Positions 11,439 to 17,618 of a stretch of 64,000 nucleotides of DNA are shown one piece after another (positions within the stretch are counted from its first letter, which is position 1; every line of letters begins with the position of its first letter). Source of the stretch: Hippea alviniae EP5-r (GTDB lineage Bacteria > Campylobacterota_A > Desulfurellia > Desulfurellales > Hippeaceae); contig NZ_ATUV01000002.1 of assembly GCF_000420385.1 (NCBI RefSeq), forward strand, positions 248,001 to 312,000, in the 5' to 3' direction. The translations under genes were made by a program, and so were the position numbers. The notes beneath the pieces are model-generated. The model had not been told where the DNA came from. It searched no databases and saw only the letters and a program-made list of their open reading frames with translations.

Positions 11439-12357
11439 AGCGACAAGGGAAGCATACGGAAAGGCATTAGTTGAATTAGGAGAAAAAAATGAGAAAGTTG
11501 TTGTTCTTGATGCTGATTTGAGTGGTTCAACGAAATCAAAAGAGTTTCAAAAGGTGTTTGAAAATAGATTCTTTAATATGGGAATAGCCGAAGCAAATAT
11601 GGCTGGTGTTGCAGCCGGCATGGCTCTTTCGGGTTTAAGACCTTATGCTTCTTCATTTGCCGTTTTTATTACGGGCAGGGCGTTTGAGATTGTAAGACAG
11701 TCCATCTGTTATCAAAACCTGCATGTTGTTTTGTGTGGTTCCCATTCGGGTATCAGTGTTGGTGAAGATGGCGGCTCTCATCAATCTGTTTGTGATATAG
11801 CACTTATGAGAGCTTTGCCGAATATGAAGGTTGTTGTGCCGGCAGATTATAACGAGACATATTTGGCTGTGCTTGAAAGCATTAATTGGGATGGGCCTGT
11901 CTATATCAGAACATCTCGTGCAAAATCGCCTGTTTTTATAAACAAAGAGAAGTTTGAACTTGGCAGGTTTGATGTACTTAAAGAAGGTGATAATTTAACG
12001 CTTGTTGCGTGTGGCATGATGGTTCACCTTGCTTTGGAAGTCTCCAAGCTGCTTGAAAAGAACGGCATAAAAGCTGAAGTTATAAACGCATCTTCCATAA
12101 AGCCGTTGGATGAAGAGACGCTATTCAATTCGGCTAAAAAGACAAACCTTGTGATAACAATTGAAGAACACTCCATAATAGGTGGTTTGGGTTCTGCTGT
12201 TAGTGAGTTTTTGTCTGAAAACCTGCCAACGAGAGTCAAGCGTATAGGTTTAAATGATGTGTTTGGTGAGTCTGGCTCAAAAGATGACCTGTTCTGCAAA
12301 TATGGGTTTACAAAGGAGAAGTTAACAGAAGAGATAAAGAAAACCTTGAAGGTGTAA
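11428..12357 (+). CDS. Transketolase, C-terminal subunit
   Basis: This is the second half of the split transketolase, with the central pyrimidine-binding domain and the C-terminal domain. The N-terminus TREAYGKAL, the FNMGIAEANMAGVAAG segment near residue 50, and EDGGSHQSVCDIAL near residue 115 are typical. I chose ATG 11428 rather than TTG 11422 because the AAAGGAG at 11414-11420 is then correctly spaced. 1-deoxyxylulose-5-phosphate synthase shares these domains but is a single long chain, so split transketolase is the better call. Confidence 0.92.
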   Translation: MEFKATREAYGKALVELGEKNEKVVVLDADLSGSTKSKEFQKVFENRFFNMGIAEANMAGVAAGMALSGLRPYASSFAVFITGRAFEIVRQSICYQNLHVVLCGSHSGISVGEDGGSHQSVCDIALMRALPNMKVVVPADYNETYLAVLESINWDGPVYIRTSRAKSPVFINKEKFELGRFDVLKEGDNLTLVACGMMVHLALEVSKLLEKNGIKAEVINASSIKPLDEETLFNSAKKTNLVITIEEHSIIGGLGSAVSEFLSENLPTRVKRIGLNDVFGESGSKDDLFCKYGFTKEKLTEEIKKTLKV

Positions 12358-13133
12358 TGCAGGTTTGGTCTGTTTTAGAAGGTTTAAAGATTATAAATGC
12401 TGATTTTTTAAATGTTGATATAGAGCCTGCAACTGTTGACCTTATAATAACTTCACCGCCTTATAATGTTGGAATTGAGTATAACACTCATGATGATGAA
12501 ACATCTTACGATGAGTATTTAAGATGGACTGAAAAATGGTTGTCAAAGGCTTTTGATGTTTTAAAAGAAGATGGGCGGTTGTGTCTAAATATTCCGCTTG
12601 ATAAAAACAAGAATGGTCAGCAGAGTGTTTATGCCGATATAACGACTATAGCTAAAAGTGTGGGTTTTAAATATCACTCAACAATAATATGGAACGAAGG
12701 GAATATATCGAGAAGAACAGCATGGGGAAGCTGGCTTTCTGCGTCTGCTCCTTATGTGATAGCTCCTGTGGAAGTTATATTGATTATGTATAAAAGGTTT
12801 TGGAAGAAGTTAAATAAAGGCGATTCCGATATAACAAAGGATGAGTTTTTGGAGTGGACAAACGGTCTGTGGACATTTTCTGGCGAGAGTAAAAAAAGAG
12901 TGGGTCATCCTGCTCCATTTCCTGTTGAGTTGCCAAAAAGGTGTATAAAGCTGTTTAGTTATGTGGGAGATTTGGTTTTAGACCCATTTTTGGGTAGTGG
13001 CTCTACGCTTATTGCTGCATATAAGTTAAACAGAAAGGCAATAGGTGTGGAGATAGATGAAGGCTATTTTAAGTTGGCAATTGATAGGGTATCAAAAGAG
13101 TGCTCTCTTTATAGGAAGATGTTATGGAAATAG
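12357..13133 (+). CDS. DNA adenine-N6 or cytosine-N4 methyltransferase (beta class) of a type II system
   Basis: It transfers a methyl group from S-adenosylmethionine to an exocyclic amino group in DNA. The catalytic motif IV is SPPY at residues 33-36 and the AdoMet motif PFLGSGS is at 210-216, so the order (catalytic before AdoMet site) is the beta class. SPPY is more frequent in N4-cytosine enzymes but occurs in N6-adenine ones too. The ATG overlaps the transketolase stop (TAATG). The end overlaps the restriction endonuclease gene by 10 bases, so this is the protecting half of a restriction-modification pair inserted between metabolic and cell-division genes. Confidence 0.9.
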   Translation: MQVWSVLEGLKIINADFLNVDIEPATVDLIITSPPYNVGIEYNTHDDETSYDEYLRWTEKWLSKAFDVLKEDGRLCLNIPLDKNKNGQQSVYADITTIAKSVGFKYHSTIIWNEGNISRRTAWGSWLSASAPYVIAPVEVILIMYKRFWKKLNKGDSDITKDEFLEWTNGLWTFSGESKKRVGHPAPFPVELPKRCIKLFSYVGDLVLDPFLGSGSTLIAAYKLNRKAIGVEIDEGYFKLAIDRVSKECSLYRKMLWK

Positions 13134-13792
13134 ATGGTATATCCGAGATTTTAGAAAGTGAAAAGAAGAGTTATTTAAACAAAAAGATTGATGAGTATAT
13201 TAAAAAGGGTTTTTCAAGTGAAGAGTCCGTTAATAGAGCAAACCAATCATGGAGAACATATATCGGTTTTAGAGTTCAGAAGATTATATTTGAGCTGTTA
13301 AAGAGAGAGATTGATGATTCATTTGTTGGTATAATATCCGATAAAGAGCTGCTTAAAAGTCATTTAGAAGAAGAGTATCAAAAGGTTAAAAGAAAGCTTG
13401 CTATAGATTATGGGCAGTATCTGTTTTTGCCAGATGCTGATATAATTCTTTACAAAAGATGCAAAAAAGTTAATGATATTGAGATTATAGCCGTTGTGTC
13501 GGTTAAAAATTCCTTTAGAGAAAGGGGCTTTGAAACTGCCTATTGGAAATTAAAACTAACACAATCTTCTATCACATCAAGGATTGTTATGTTTTTAGCA
13601 ACACCTGATAAAGATGGTGAAATATCTTACAGGGTGCACAAAAGGAACCCGAGAAAGATGAGAATAATTTTGGAGCATGAGCTTGACGGTATATATTTCT
13701 TAAAGAGCGATTTTGAAAAGACAGAGAAGGCGAAGCATTTTAGCGAGATGATTAGAGATTTAAAAAGGCTAATAAAAACAGTTGATTGTTGA
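13124..13792 (+). CDS. Type II restriction endonuclease, BsaWI/CCGG-type fold (predicted)
   Basis: It is the probable cutting partner of the adjacent methyltransferase. Over 222 residues the catalytic features are PDAD at 103-106, then SVKNS at 126-130 with Lys128, immediately followed by RER at 132-134 and Glu137. A PD, then K, then R-(D/E)-R arrangement with a downstream acid is the signature of endonucleases that recognise CCGG or CCNGG cores (for example BsaWI, NgoMIV and EcoRII relatives). The motif reading is mine; the specificity is inference. The coupled methyltransferase upstream supports the role. The gene ends 9 bases before ftsE. Confidence 0.75.
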   Translation: MEIDGISEILESEKKSYLNKKIDEYIKKGFSSEESVNRANQSWRTYIGFRVQKIIFELLKREIDDSFVGIISDKELLKSHLEEEYQKVKRKLAIDYGQYLFLPDADIILYKRCKKVNDIEIIAVVSVKNSFRERGFETAYWKLKLTQSSITSRIVMFLATPDKDGEISYRVHKRNPRKMRIILEHELDGIYFLKSDFEKTEKAKHFSEMIRDLKRLIKTVDC

Positions 13793-13801
13793 TTTTGCTT
13801 T

Positions 13802-14428
13802 ATGGTTGAGTTTATTGATGTAAACAAAAGCTATAACAGGCGTGTTATATTTAAAAATTTGAACTTTAGAATCGCTCAAGGCAGGATAAATCAGATAATA
13901 CTGCCACAGTCTGCAGGCAAAAGCACAATTCTAAAGATGATTTATGGTGCAGAGAAGCCAGATAGTGGGTTTGTGCGGGTGTTTGATTTTAATGTGGGTG
14001 ATTTGAATTACTCAGGCATCCTTCTGCTTAGAAGATATTTAGGCATTATATTTGAAGATATAAGGCTTATCTCAACAATGACAGTCAAGGAGAACCTGCA
14101 GGCTATAACGAAACTGACAAAGAGAAACCTGTATCTGTCAGAAGAGATATTTGACATACTTTCGATTGGTCATCTGCTTGACAAGTATCCGCAGGAGTTA
14201 TCCATTAGCGAACAGTCGCTTGTCAATATTGCCCGTGGTGTTATATACAACTTTCCGTTGGTTATAGCAGATGAGCCTTTGAGATATCTCTCTGAGCATT
14301 ACAGGAGAAAGGTTATTCACCTGTTTAAAAGATTAAACGAGAAGAAGGGTATAACATTTCTGATTGCAACGCTGAATTCGATAGACGATGAGTTTTTTAC
14401 CATAGAGATAAACAATGAGACGGCGTGA
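13802..14428 (+). CDS. ftsE: FtsE-like cell-division ABC ATPase with degenerate nucleotide motifs
   Basis: FtsE normally hydrolyses ATP to drive FtsX and switch on periplasmic peptidoglycan hydrolysis during division. The 208-residue length, overall FtsE layout and a following ftsX identify it. However, the motifs are eroded. Walker A reads LPQSAGKS (residues 34-41), missing the first glycine. The Q-loop glutamine is Glu85, the signature is LSISEQ (133-138) instead of LSGGEQ, and the switch histidine is Leu191. Walker B with its glutamate (LVIADE, 153-158) is intact. It may bind nucleotide weakly or act structurally. Overlap with ftsX is 14 bases. Confidence 0.82.
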   Translation: MVEFIDVNKSYNRRVIFKNLNFRIAQGRINQIILPQSAGKSTILKMIYGAEKPDSGFVRVFDFNVGDLNYSGILLLRRYLGIIFEDIRLISTMTVKENLQAITKLTKRNLYLSEEIFDILSIGHLLDKYPQELSISEQSLVNIARGVIYNFPLVIADEPLRYLSEHYRRKVIHLFKRLNEKKGITFLIATLNSIDDEFFTIEINNETA

Positions 14429-15248
14429 TAATGTAAAGGTTGCACTTTTCTTCATATTTGTTTCGTTTGTCTTAACGATGAGTATCTTGATGAGCATCTT
14501 TTTTGCATTAAACGCCTATGTTGAGCAGAAAAAAAGCCAGACGCCACTGTTTGTCTTTGTAAAACCTGAAGCTTCAGCAGAAGAAGTCAATGCTCTCATA
14601 AACCAGATAGAGCTAAAAAAGGGCGTGCGTAAAGTAAAGCTGATAGACAAAGATAAGGCATTCAACGAGATGATTAAGAAGTTCTCCATAGATAAAAACC
14701 TATTCAGTAGAAATCCGTTTCCTTACTCGATTGAAGTTTTCTTTATACCTTCGTTTACAACGGAGTCTTACTTTAATCAGTTTGCCCTTTCGTTGAACTC
14801 TGATATTGTTGATGCCGTTAAGTATCCAAAGGGCGTTTTGGCAGAGATTAGCTCCCTGCATGAAAGACTTATTTACTTTTCTGAAGTTGTTGTCGGAGTT
14901 TTGTATGCTGTTGAGTTTATTGTCTTTTTGTCCATTATGACGATATTTTACTCCCATCGCAAGTTCGATTACGATACGCTTAAATTCTTCGGTATAAAGC
15001 GGTTTATTATCTTTAGGATGTTCCTTAAGGATACGATAGTCCCTGCGGTTTGGGGTTTTCTATTCTCTGTTGTCGTTATTGTTGCAATCTACTTTGTTTA
15101 CGACAAATACGGCGACATTCCATACATCAGCAAGGAGTTGTTTAAAAGTTCCCAAAAAAGCACATTTGCCTTAAATATACTCATCGGTTTTCTGTTTACT
15201 TTCGTCTCATCGCTTATCGTTTTCGTTTTCAATGATGAAAAGGTTTAG
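14415..15248 (+). CDS. ftsX: FtsX cell-division membrane protein
   Basis: This is the membrane partner of FtsE. One N-terminal transmembrane segment (about residues 12-35) is followed by a periplasmic domain (about 45-150) and then three hydrophobic segments near 158-180, 212-235 and 252-275, the FtsX plan. The periplasmic loop binds EnvC-type activators in other bacteria, and an EnvC-like gene is next, overlapping by 17 bases. The sequence itself is divergent, so the call relies on topology and neighbours. Confidence 0.85.
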   Translation: MRRRDNVKVALFFIFVSFVLTMSILMSIFFALNAYVEQKKSQTPLFVFVKPEASAEEVNALINQIELKKGVRKVKLIDKDKAFNEMIKKFSIDKNLFSRNPFPYSIEVFFIPSFTTESYFNQFALSLNSDIVDAVKYPKGVLAEISSLHERLIYFSEVVVGVLYAVEFIVFLSIMTIFYSHRKFDYDTLKFFGIKRFIIFRMFLKDTIVPAVWGFLFSVVVIVAIYFVYDKYGDIPYISKELFKSSQKSTFALNILIGFLFTFVSSLIVFVFNDEKV

Positions 15249-16386
15249 TTTTTTTATACTTTTTTTGATTCTTCTTAATCCGATTTGTGGATATTCAGCA
15301 AATAAAAAGGCAATAGAAGAGAAGCTAAAAAGCATCTCCGAGACGATAAAACAGCGAAAGGAAGATTACAACAAGATAAGAAGCCAGTATTTGACGATAC
15401 TTAAGCAGATTTCAAACACAGACAAAAGGATAACCTTTCTGAAATCAAAAATAAAAAGAACAAAAAGGGACTTAGATTTGCTAAATAAAAAGATAGCAAC
15501 TTTGAAGAAAGAGATTGACAAGGTGTCTTTAGATTTAGAAAGGCAGAAAGAGAAGCTCTATAGGGAACTTGTTAGCTATTATGAGTATTCGAAGGTGAGC
15601 AACTATTATGCCAAGGGTGTCTGGTATAGCTATATGAACAGGTTTATTACTTCGTATATGCAGCAGAAGATAAAGAATTATATCTCAAAAAGGGAGTATC
15701 TTAAAGAGAGAATAGCCAAGCTAAATGCGTATATGGTTCAAAAGCAGAAAATTATGGAGAAGATAAAGAGTCAACAGAGAGATTTGGATACGCAGAAAGC
15801 AACATTGAGCAAGCTTGCAGAGATGGCAGAGAACAAAAAGAAGCAGTATCTTGCCGAGATACAACAGTTGACAAAGCAGAGAGAGAATCTAAAGGAGCTT
15901 CTTAAGAAGATTATAGAAGAAGAGAAGAAAAAGAGAGAAAGCAGAAAGCTTAAGGTTGTCCAGAAGGTAAACCCGAAACTTGTTGAGAAAGAGTTTAAAG
16001 CCTTAGCGCATAAAATAAAACCGCCTGTTTATGGTAAGGTTGTGGCTTATTTTGGCAGGAAGTATGACCCTGTTTTTAAGGTTTATACAAGAAACGACGG
16101 CATAGATATAAGGGCAAAAAAAGGAAGCTGCATAAGAACCATAGCATACGGCAAGGTTGGGTTTGTTGGTGATTTGCCGGGATATGGTGGTGTTGTTATA
16201 ATAAACCACTTAAATGGTTACTATACCGTTTATGCTGGACTTAAGAGCTCTTTAAGGGTGGGTCAGATTGTTAAGGCTTATCAGTGCATAGGTAGATTGA
16301 GCTCAACAAAACTGCACTTTGAGATAAGGAGACATGCAACGCCAGTCAATCCGTTATATTTTCTTGATAGGAGGTTTTTGAGATGA
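15232..16386 (+). CDS. envC: EnvC-like murein hydrolase activator with a degenerate LytM (M23) domain
   Basis: A signal peptide (first 20-odd residues) leads into a long coiled coil (about residues 25-245) and a C-terminal M23/LytM fold (about 265-375). In the LytM part the zinc-ligand histidine of the HxGxD motif is Asn (NDGID) and the HxH motif keeps only the second histidine context (LHFEI), with YAGL where active enzymes have YAHL. It is therefore probably a non-catalytic activator of amidases, as in E. coli EnvC, rather than a peptidase. It follows ftsX and overlaps ctpA as ATGA. A candidate client is the amidase at 19399-20493. Start 15232 or 15235 cannot be separated. Confidence 0.88.
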   Translation: MMKRFSFFILFLILLNPICGYSANKKAIEEKLKSISETIKQRKEDYNKIRSQYLTILKQISNTDKRITFLKSKIKRTKRDLDLLNKKIATLKKEIDKVSLDLERQKEKLYRELVSYYEYSKVSNYYAKGVWYSYMNRFITSYMQQKIKNYISKREYLKERIAKLNAYMVQKQKIMEKIKSQQRDLDTQKATLSKLAEMAENKKKQYLAEIQQLTKQRENLKELLKKIIEEEKKKRESRKLKVVQKVNPKLVEKEFKALAHKIKPPVYGKVVAYFGRKYDPVFKVYTRNDGIDIRAKKGSCIRTIAYGKVGFVGDLPGYGGVVIINHLNGYYTVYAGLKSSLRVGQIVKAYQCIGRLSSTKLHFEIRRHATPVNPLYFLDRRFLR

Positions 16387-17618
16387 AAAGGTTATTTGCC
16401 TTGGTCTTTGCATTTGTAATTGTTGCTGTGCCGACATTTGCCAAAGAGAGCGAATATGAGAAGCTAAAAATCTTTGCTAAAGTCATGGCGATTATTGAGC
16501 ATGATTATGTTGACAATGTGAGCCAGACAAAGCTGATTAACGATGCTATCAAAGGCATGGTAAGCTCATTAGACCCGCACTCATCTTACATGACAAAGGA
16601 TGAGTATAAGGAGCTTAAAATTACAACAACCGGTAAGTTTGGTGGTCTTGGAATGGTTGTTACGATGAAAGATGGTATTTTAACGGTTGTCTCACCCATC
16701 GAAGATACACCGGCTTTTAAGGCTGGCATAAAAGCTGGTGACAAGATTATAAAGATAAACGGTGAAAGCACATTTGGTATGACGCTTGAACAGTGTGTGA
16801 AGCTTCTGCGTGGAAAACCCGGCACAAAGGTTACGATAACGATTATAAGGGAAGGTAAACAGAAGCCGTTTGATGTTACAATCACAAGGGCGATTATTCA
16901 TGTAAAGAGCGTTAAATACAAAAAGTATGGTGATATCGGTTATGTAAGAATAACGCAGTTTCAAGATGGAACAACGAGCGAGCTTAAAAAGGCTTTGAAA
17001 AAGTTGGGCAAAATAAAAGGCCTTGTGATTGATTTAAGAAACGATCCGGGTGGTCTTTTAAGGGAAGCAATAGGTGTGTGTGATTTGTTTATTAAGAAGG
17101 GTGTAATTGTATCGATTAGGGGAAGAAACAAGTCAGACAGTAGATACTTCTATGCACACGATGACGGTAATGAGCCCAATTATCCTATTGTTGTTTTAAT
17201 CAACTCTGGAACGGCAAGTGCGGCAGAGATTGTCTCAGGCTGTTTAAAAGACCATAAAAGGGCAATCATAATGGGTGTAAGAAGCTTTGGTAAGGGTTCT
17301 GTTCAGTCGATTATACCGCTTGGAGACGGTTCTGCTTTAAGGCTTACGACGGCTAAATATTACACGCCAAGTGGCAAGAGTATTCAAGCTGTTGGCATTG
17401 AGCCGGATATTGTCGTGCATCAGGCAAAGATTATAGAAGAAGAGAGCAACTTCACGATAAGAGAAAGCAATCTATTGCATCATCTAAACAATCCGACAGG
17501 TCAGAAGGTTAAAAAAGAGACAGACCTACAGAAGGAGTTAAAAGACGATTATCAGCTGTTAAGGGCAATAGAGCTGATAAAGGCAGAAGATATAATATGT
17601 TCAAGAAAATCGCACTGA
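16383..17618 (+). CDS. ctpA: Carboxyl-terminal processing protease (S41 family)
   Basis: This is a periplasmic serine protease that trims C-termini or degrades cell-wall regulators. It has a signal peptide (residues 1-20), a PDZ domain (about 85-165, with GFGGLGM-like and AGIKAGD elements) and the S41 catalytic core. The Ser-Lys dyad is visible as Ser279 (SGTASAAE) and Lys304 (FGKGS), 25 residues apart as in Prc/CtpA. The gene sits between envC and a divergent polysaccharide deacetylase, a recurring arrangement in proteobacteria that links it to control of peptidoglycan hydrolysis. Confidence 0.95.
   Translation: MKRLFALVFAFVIVAVPTFAKESEYEKLKIFAKVMAIIEHDYVDNVSQTKLINDAIKGMVSSLDPHSSYMTKDEYKELKITTTGKFGGLGMVVTMKDGILTVVSPIEDTPAFKAGIKAGDKIIKINGESTFGMTLEQCVKLLRGKPGTKVTITIIREGKQKPFDVTITRAIIHVKSVKYKKYGDIGYVRITQFQDGTTSELKKALKKLGKIKGLVIDLRNDPGGLLREAIGVCDLFIKKGVIVSIRGRNKSDSRYFYAHDDGNEPNYPIVVLINSGTASAAEIVSGCLKDHKRAIIMGVRSFGKGSVQSIIPLGDGSALRLTTAKYYTPSGKSIQAVGIEPDIVVHQAKIIEEESNFTIRESNLLHHLNNPTGQKVKKETDLQKELKDDYQLLRAIELIKAEDIICSRKSH

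Follow-up and report, generated by a model that had tools for sequence, protein, structure and literature searches.

Class-wide and selected loss of most ATPase motifs in the FtsE of Hippea alviniae and its relatives

The window, by which the whole stretch of 64,000 nucleotides analysed here is meant (positions 248,001 to 312,000 of contig NZ_ATUV01000002.1 of Hippea alviniae EP5-r), belongs to a genome of 1.75 Mb in 4 contigs and carries an intact operon of the order tkt-ftsE-ftsX-envC-ctpA (Table 1). The placement of tkt before ftsE and of ctpA after envC is kept in relatives. As the preliminary description of this DNA had it, ftsX and envC are both open and lie next to each other, and they overlap. 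The FtsX protein contains the stretch LKFFGIKR, which is kept in the family and which we take to be its coupling helix. The envC-like protein has NCBIfam EnvC as its best family, at 63.6 bits against a cut-off of 270; it joins a coiled coil to a LytM domain devoid of zinc ligands and is in this respect an EnvC-type activator. The canonical zinc motif of LytM, replaced in EnvC, is HxxxD / xxH / HxH.

The genome encodes FtsA (482.8 bits) and a single Amidase_3 protein was found in it, which is likely to be the target of EnvC. Two M23 proteins were found, of which EnvC alone is degenerate, and a second degenerate LytM protein that could stand in for NlpD was not found in the genome. The other M23 protein (L082, G000:C1:305609-305893) has a long N-terminal part and reads HKGYD / YGHL / HLHF, by the same motif an intact zinc site. 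The interval 12357-13792, between tkt and ftsE, encodes a DNA methyltransferase of the N6_N4_Mtase family and a restriction endonuclease of the BsaWI type (PF18643, 107 bits). No match to either was found at the loci of 23 relatives (L009-L014, L017-L026, L044, L046-L048, L067-L069), and where a relative's stretch reaches tkt, this gene sits close before ftsE; hence the pair looks like a recent insertion.

Table 1. Features of the ftsE locus in the window, with the residues of FtsE placed by alignment, and the clearly eroded FtsE of other lineages
Feature	Position	Strand	Remarks
ftsE-derived nucleotide-binding domain (NBD), 208 aa, eroded ATPase motifs	13802..14428	+	open ORF; adjoins FtsX
Walker A residues 34-37, LPQS for GxxG (Gly1 to Leu34, Gly2 to Ser37)	13901..13912	+	alignment
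P-loop Gly39 Lys40 Ser41 Thr42, kept	13916..13927	+	G39, K40, T42 in 22/22 and S/T41 in 22/22 of the class
Glu85 in place of Q-loop Gln	14054..14056	+	class Glu 19/22, Asp 3/22; Campylobacterota Gln 7/7
LSISEQ (133-138) for signature LSGGEQ; Ile135, Ser136 for both glycines	14198..14215	+	first Gly lost 22/22, second 18/22; Ser134, Glu137 kept 22/22
Walker B Asp157 and catalytic Glu158, kept	14270..14275	+	22/22
Ser164 in place of D-loop Asp (GNLD to RYLS)	14291..14293	+	Asp lost 22/22
Leu191 in place of switch (H-loop) His	14372..14374	+	His lost 22/22; in the family Leu 8, Gln 7, Ile 1 of 16
ftsX, 277 aa	14415..15248	+	14-base overlap with ftsE; FtsX extracellular domain PF18075, 43.3 bits, cut-off 23.5
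envC-like, coiled coil and degenerate LytM (M23) activator	15232..16386	+	overlaps ftsX; PF01551, 72.4 bits; NDGID / YAGL / KLHFE
ctpA (S41 protease)	16383..17618	+	overlaps envC, in conserved gene order; CtpA 80-82% identical in L044, L046, L047, L048
N-acetylmuramoyl-L-alanine amidase, sole Amidase_3 found in the genome	19399..20493	-	3 kb downstream of envC
L111, other lineage			LSLGE; Glu to Asp; His to Ser
L112, other lineage			LSYGE; His to Lys
L124, other lineage			ISCNE; Glu to Gln; His to Ser
L131, other lineage			Gln to Pro; FSTGE; His to Thr
L134, other lineage			ISENE; His kept
L135, other lineage			Walker A broken too; LSFNE; Glu to Gln; His to Gln

By gene order the reading frame before ftsX is most probably an ortholog of ftsE, and the adjacent FtsX has the FtsX extracellular domain. 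Its best NCBIfam family is FtsE (TIGR02673), with 127.8 bits against a curated cut-off of 264.85, and the match covers positions 1-196 of the 214 of the model, about 18 positions being missing at the model end. This cut-off is passed by the canonical FtsE of another lineage (L138, 266 bits) and is missed also by a canonical FtsE of Campylobacterota (L080, 210.4 bits); therefore, the cut-off alone is not decisive for membership in FtsE. The closest solved structures are the FtsE of 6z4w, 6z63 and 8idb. A structure prediction made from four close FtsE sequences had a mean pLDDT of 43.8 and carries no structural claim.

The names and roles of the ABC motifs are well established. The residue positions of the window protein were set by alignment with 7 canonical FtsE of Campylobacterota and 42 FtsE of other lineages, and 6z4w was also aligned. 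The preliminary description had put Leu34 in the place of the first Walker A glycine, Glu85 in that of the Q-loop Gln, LSISEQ in that of LSGGEQ and Leu191 in that of the switch His, and the alignments with the 7 Campylobacterota proteins and 6z4w agree on all four. The erosion of most FtsE motifs is real and reaches wider than was then noted, as Ser37 (second Walker A Gly) and Ser164 (D-loop Asp) come in addition. Hence, the motif set of a competent ABC ATPase, that is GxxGxGK[ST], the Q-loop Gln, LSGG, the D-loop Asp and the switch His, is not found in this protein (motif names and roles for FtsE are given in the review PMC11627006). Walker B with its Glu, earlier described as intact, is indeed present as Asp157-Glu158. 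Gly39, Lys40, Ser41, Thr42 and Ser134 are likewise as in canonical FtsE, and a Tyr stands at position 11.

The losses are shared by all members of the class in which FtsEX was found. The sample consisted of the 25 genomes of the window's GTDB phylum, in which FtsX was searched with the FtsX extracellular domain model and found in 22 (16 of the window's family, f1, and 3 each of the families f2 and f3). The Q-loop Gln, the first signature Gly, the D-loop Asp and the switch His are absent from FtsE in all 22 FtsX-bearing members, and the same 22 keep Gly39, Lys40, Ser or Thr at 41, Thr42, Ser134, Asp157 and Glu158, so that the Walker B Asp, the catalytic Glu and the P-loop GK[ST] are found together in every one. 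In Walker A, 19/22 (every member of f1 and f2) are without the second Gly, which f3 retains, and 10/22 are without the first, with Leu instead in 9 members of the window's genus and Ala in one further. The second signature Gly has gone from 18/22, the keepers being L023, of the same family as the window, and the three f3 members. The loci L046, L047 and L048 show the same state but coincide with G007, G006 and G003, and hence do not add independent cases. The switch position varies freely across the class (Leu, Gln, Ile, Lys and others). There is no internal stop in any FtsE copy found. In one f2 member (L024) the protein scores slightly higher with L_ocin_972_ABC (120.8 bits) than with FtsE (113.3 bits), neither being over its cut-off, and hence it is taken as FtsE on account of the FtsX encoded beside it. 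In a tree built of FtsE only, with no other ABC family in it and with the partial genes L015 and L016 excluded, the class members form one branch with a support of 100/99. Close relatives with intact motifs would, in the preliminary description, have indicated a local pseudogene or an error, and the alignment of relatives that it called for shows the loss fixed in 22/22 instead.

Purifying selection on FtsE is strong. The two same-family pairs whose dS is unsaturated have dN/dS ratios of 0.021 and 0.022. The ratio is 0.014-0.061 in seven other same-family pairs with a high but finite dS, 0.110 in one f2 pair, and 0.140 and 0.197 in two f3 pairs. Because 13 of the closest 25 same-family pairs listed have a saturated (infinite) dS and several others one above 1, these ratios are firm for the closest pairs alone. 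Between the window and eight genus-mates, FtsE is 79-85% identical and FtsX 58-65%. The derived residues Gln36, Ser37, Glu85, Arg161 and Tyr162 are invariant in 16/16 family members and the switch position is variable, which points to a protein constrained by a new function for which the switch residue is irrelevant; the fixed residues are as expected for a changed function rather than for decay.

The direction of change is best seen from Campylobacterota. These were picked from 386 genomes by HobA (PF12163), which we take to be a marker confined to Campylobacterota and which was positive in 3/386, and the GyrB yardstick singled out none. The FtsX domain model was positive in 7 of 121 Campylobacterota genomes, four of the seven being of one genus (g331). 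The FtsE adjacent to FtsX carries every canonical residue in 7/7 of them, and the order ftsE-ftsX-envC is common to both groups. Since these seven Campylobacterota FtsE are all canonical, the losses of the class are most simply derived from a canonical ancestor. As f3 retains Walker A and the second signature Gly, an order of loss is weakly suggested, in which the Gln, the first signature Gly, the D-loop Asp and the His went earliest, followed by the second Gly of Walker A and of the signature, and last, mainly in the window's genus, by the first Walker A Gly. This order leans on the GTDB labels of kinship (same order or same class); the FtsE tree, which groups f2 with f3 at 92/60, leaves it unconfirmed, and GyrB, at 55-58% to the window for both f2 and f3, gives no separation.

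The FtsE of this class is probably a selected ortholog turned pseudo-ATPase, which would at most bind nucleotide and would scaffold FtsX-EnvC without a normal cycle of hydrolysis. The window protein would still fold as an FtsX-binding nucleotide-binding domain. From the sequence we infer that it probably still holds Mg-nucleotide, having the P-loop GKST, the Walker B Asp-Glu and an aromatic A-loop residue, and that it does not hydrolyse efficiently: with the Q-loop Gln, the signature glycines, the D-loop Asp and the switch His gone, the parts that sense the gamma-phosphate, close the two-site dimer and drive hydrolysis would be missing. Most likely, the FtsEX of the class would act as a scaffold or a slow latch: it would recruit EnvC to the septum, EnvC would thereby be held able to activate the single amidase, and the timing would come from recruitment to the divisome, not from an ATP hydrolysis cycle.

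There is experimental precedent on both sides of this reading. For example, recruitment of EnvC by FtsEX, and not ATP hydrolysis, is reported to suffice for cell separation in E. coli when NlpD is present, and hydrolysis by FtsEX to be needed when NlpD is missing (PMC7343993). The FtsE(E163Q)X-EnvC complex, ATP-bound and non-hydrolysing, is described as activating AmiB, and FtsX-EnvC without FtsE as giving no rise in amidase activity (PMC11139282). ATP binding is reported to drive the activation of EnvC (PMC12505981). Hydrolysis is stated to be required for RipC activation in M. tuberculosis (PMC10694151), and the E. coli FtsE ATPase mutant D162N is reported to block septal synthesis through FtsA (PMC7343993). 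As FtsA is present and no NlpD-like second degenerate LytM protein was found, the E. coli precedent predicts trouble for a hydrolysis-free FtsEX, and the block through FtsA would have to be absent or otherwise solved in the class.

The chief doubt on the pseudo-ATPase reading is the invariant catalytic Glu. Glu158, together with Lys40 and Asp157, is the same in 22/22 members, which is more than pure scaffolding needs, and a slow or altered hydrolysis is possible. FtsE might still be an ATPase with a slow, altered cycle, in which Glu158 with Glu85, Ser37, Ser136 and Arg161-Tyr162 replace the lost residues; we hold this to be unlikely, and yet worth serious thought, as the catalytic Glu, the Walker A Lys and the Walker B Asp are kept throughout, the new residues are fixed in the family, and the second signature Gly is retained in L023 and three f3 members. 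However, the switch His has been replaced by unrelated and freely varying residues, and the D-loop Asp and the Q-loop Gln are gone. All three are usually needed for turnover in ABC ATPases.

FtsEX could also have dropped the control of wall splitting and taken another role in the envelope. This is improbable, as the FtsX extracellular domain persists in most genomes of the phylum (22/25) and EnvC and the gene order are kept. What speaks for it is a further family of the class, f4, in which FtsX was not found in 3/3 genomes (G020, G022 and G024, two of them 87-88% complete) by the Pfam model and by an alignment profile, the latter giving weak matches alone, inside ORFs of 400 residues, in 2/3 genomes. 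The FtsEX pathway may have been lost in f4, so that the system may be dispensable in the class.

A third possibility is that FtsX pairs the eroded FtsE with a canonical ATPase encoded elsewhere, as a heterodimer with one working site. ABC exporters with one degenerate site are described (PMC7756269), and over 30 ABC ATPase matches are found in the genome (34 in one search and 40 in the other). Still, we regard such a pairing as very improbable. No match over the cut-off of the FtsE model was found in the whole genome, and a second canonical FtsE, which the preliminary description had named as evidence against itself, did not turn up. Of the 10 paralogs typed, 9 fit other ABC families best, mostly under the cut-off, and the tenth (L008) could be assigned to none at the threshold applied. 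No second NBD gene was found beside ftsEX at the locus. That the gene is a locally broken pseudogene or a sequencing or assembly error, as the joint change of many motif residues and the low FtsE-model score could suggest, has next to no probability and is rejected, because there are no internal stops, the losses recur in 22/22 class members under purifying selection (dN/dS 0.021-0.022 in the unsaturated pairs), and all 10 ABC ATPases read in the same genome have a canonical Walker A (LSGG in 8/10 by a simple pattern), so that neither chance nor error accounts for them.

The preliminary description had suggested that the activation of cell-wall splitting may not use normal ATP hydrolysis by FtsE in this lineage. 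As the losses are not local and no second FtsE was found, it is therefore favoured that the normal hydrolysis cycle is unused, in keeping with the pseudo-ATPase reading; it is put no more strongly than that in view of the invariance of the P-loop GKST, the Walker B Asp and the catalytic Glu.

There are hints of the same loss elsewhere. The background was made up of 80 genomes of other lineages, of which 49 have the FtsX domain (30 loci and 19 stretches), with an FtsE-like ORF at 42 of the 49 loci. The seven FtsX loci without such an ORF in the stretch (L096, L103, L105, L119, L125, L130 and L137) were left uncounted; there, the two genes may be separated or the stretch may be cut. Canonical residues among the 42 are the first Walker A Gly in 41, the second in 41, the Lys in 42, the Q-loop Gln in 41, the first signature Gly in 33, the second in 39, the Walker B Asp in 42, the catalytic Glu in 39, the D-loop Asp in 42 and the switch His in 36, one of the six misses of the last (L095) being unreadable DNA. 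Clear erosion is seen in six of the 42 (Table 1), each from a single genome; L099, L106 and L116, which are without the first signature Gly alone, were not classed as such. Like the FtsE of the window's class, these six stand directly upstream of ftsX and have lost the first signature Gly (6/6) and mostly the switch His (5/6). Unlike it, they keep the D-loop Asp (6/6), the loss of which is seen in the window's class alone when set against the 42 FtsE of other lineages and the 7 of Campylobacterota. In three of the six the catalytic Glu is replaced, twice by Gln and once by Asp, a change that the window's class never shows. The change from Glu to Gln is the one made in the laboratory for trapping the ATP-bound state. 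In the FtsE tree, L112 groups with six canonical rows in a starred branch (96/98) and L124 likewise with canonical rows (84/91), and hence their losses look separate from the one in the window's class; the remaining four stand on very long branches and are unplaceable.

A wider proposal may be made, which we offer tentatively and with some doubt. FtsE would have become a pseudo-ATPase several times. One such change would date from the origin of the class, all three FtsEX-bearing families of which are fixed for it, and others would have occurred separately in at least two further lineages, some with the change from Glu to Gln. Wall splitting would be hydrolysis-free there, and hydrolysis would be a dispensable add-on, with recruitment or nucleotide binding as the core of the system. 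The need of FtsEX for nucleotide is described as disputed, with binding in P. aeruginosa, hydrolysis in M. tuberculosis and no dependence in V. cholerae (PMC11139282). A class with a conserved, motif-stripped FtsE, together with the scattered others, is a natural experiment on the need of FtsEX for hydrolysis. With one amidase and one degenerate LytM activator, the pathway could be rebuilt from few parts. The FtsE of the class should not carry the standard annotation as an ATPase. A literature search, made largely outside subscription papers and including the FtsE of Campylobacter and Helicobacter and the distribution of FtsEX, returned no report of a naturally eroded FtsE; it returned no paper joining Desulfurella with FtsEX, and one with FtsE and Hippea that is unrelated by its title.

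The nearest known system is the FtsE of FtsEX-EnvC in E. coli and P. aeruginosa, a type VII ABC system. The window protein shares with it the ftsX/envC order, the NBD fold by homology, the P-loop GKST, the Walker B Asp-Glu and the LRR.LG..F region before the Q-loop. In contrast to it, the window protein is without the Q-loop Gln, the signature glycines, the D-loop Asp, the switch His and the Walker A glycines. Heterodimeric exporters, for example TM287/288, ABCB2/B3 and ABCC1, are well known to have degenerate ABC sites; they resemble the window's class in that catalytic residues were lost naturally under conservation, and their degenerate sites are described as thought to hold ATP rather than to hydrolyse it (PMC7756269). 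These exporters combine one degenerate site with one working site, and their catalytic Glu is usually changed, whereas it is kept in the window FtsE. Here a single NBD gene accompanies ftsX, and in a homodimer both sites would thus be degenerate.
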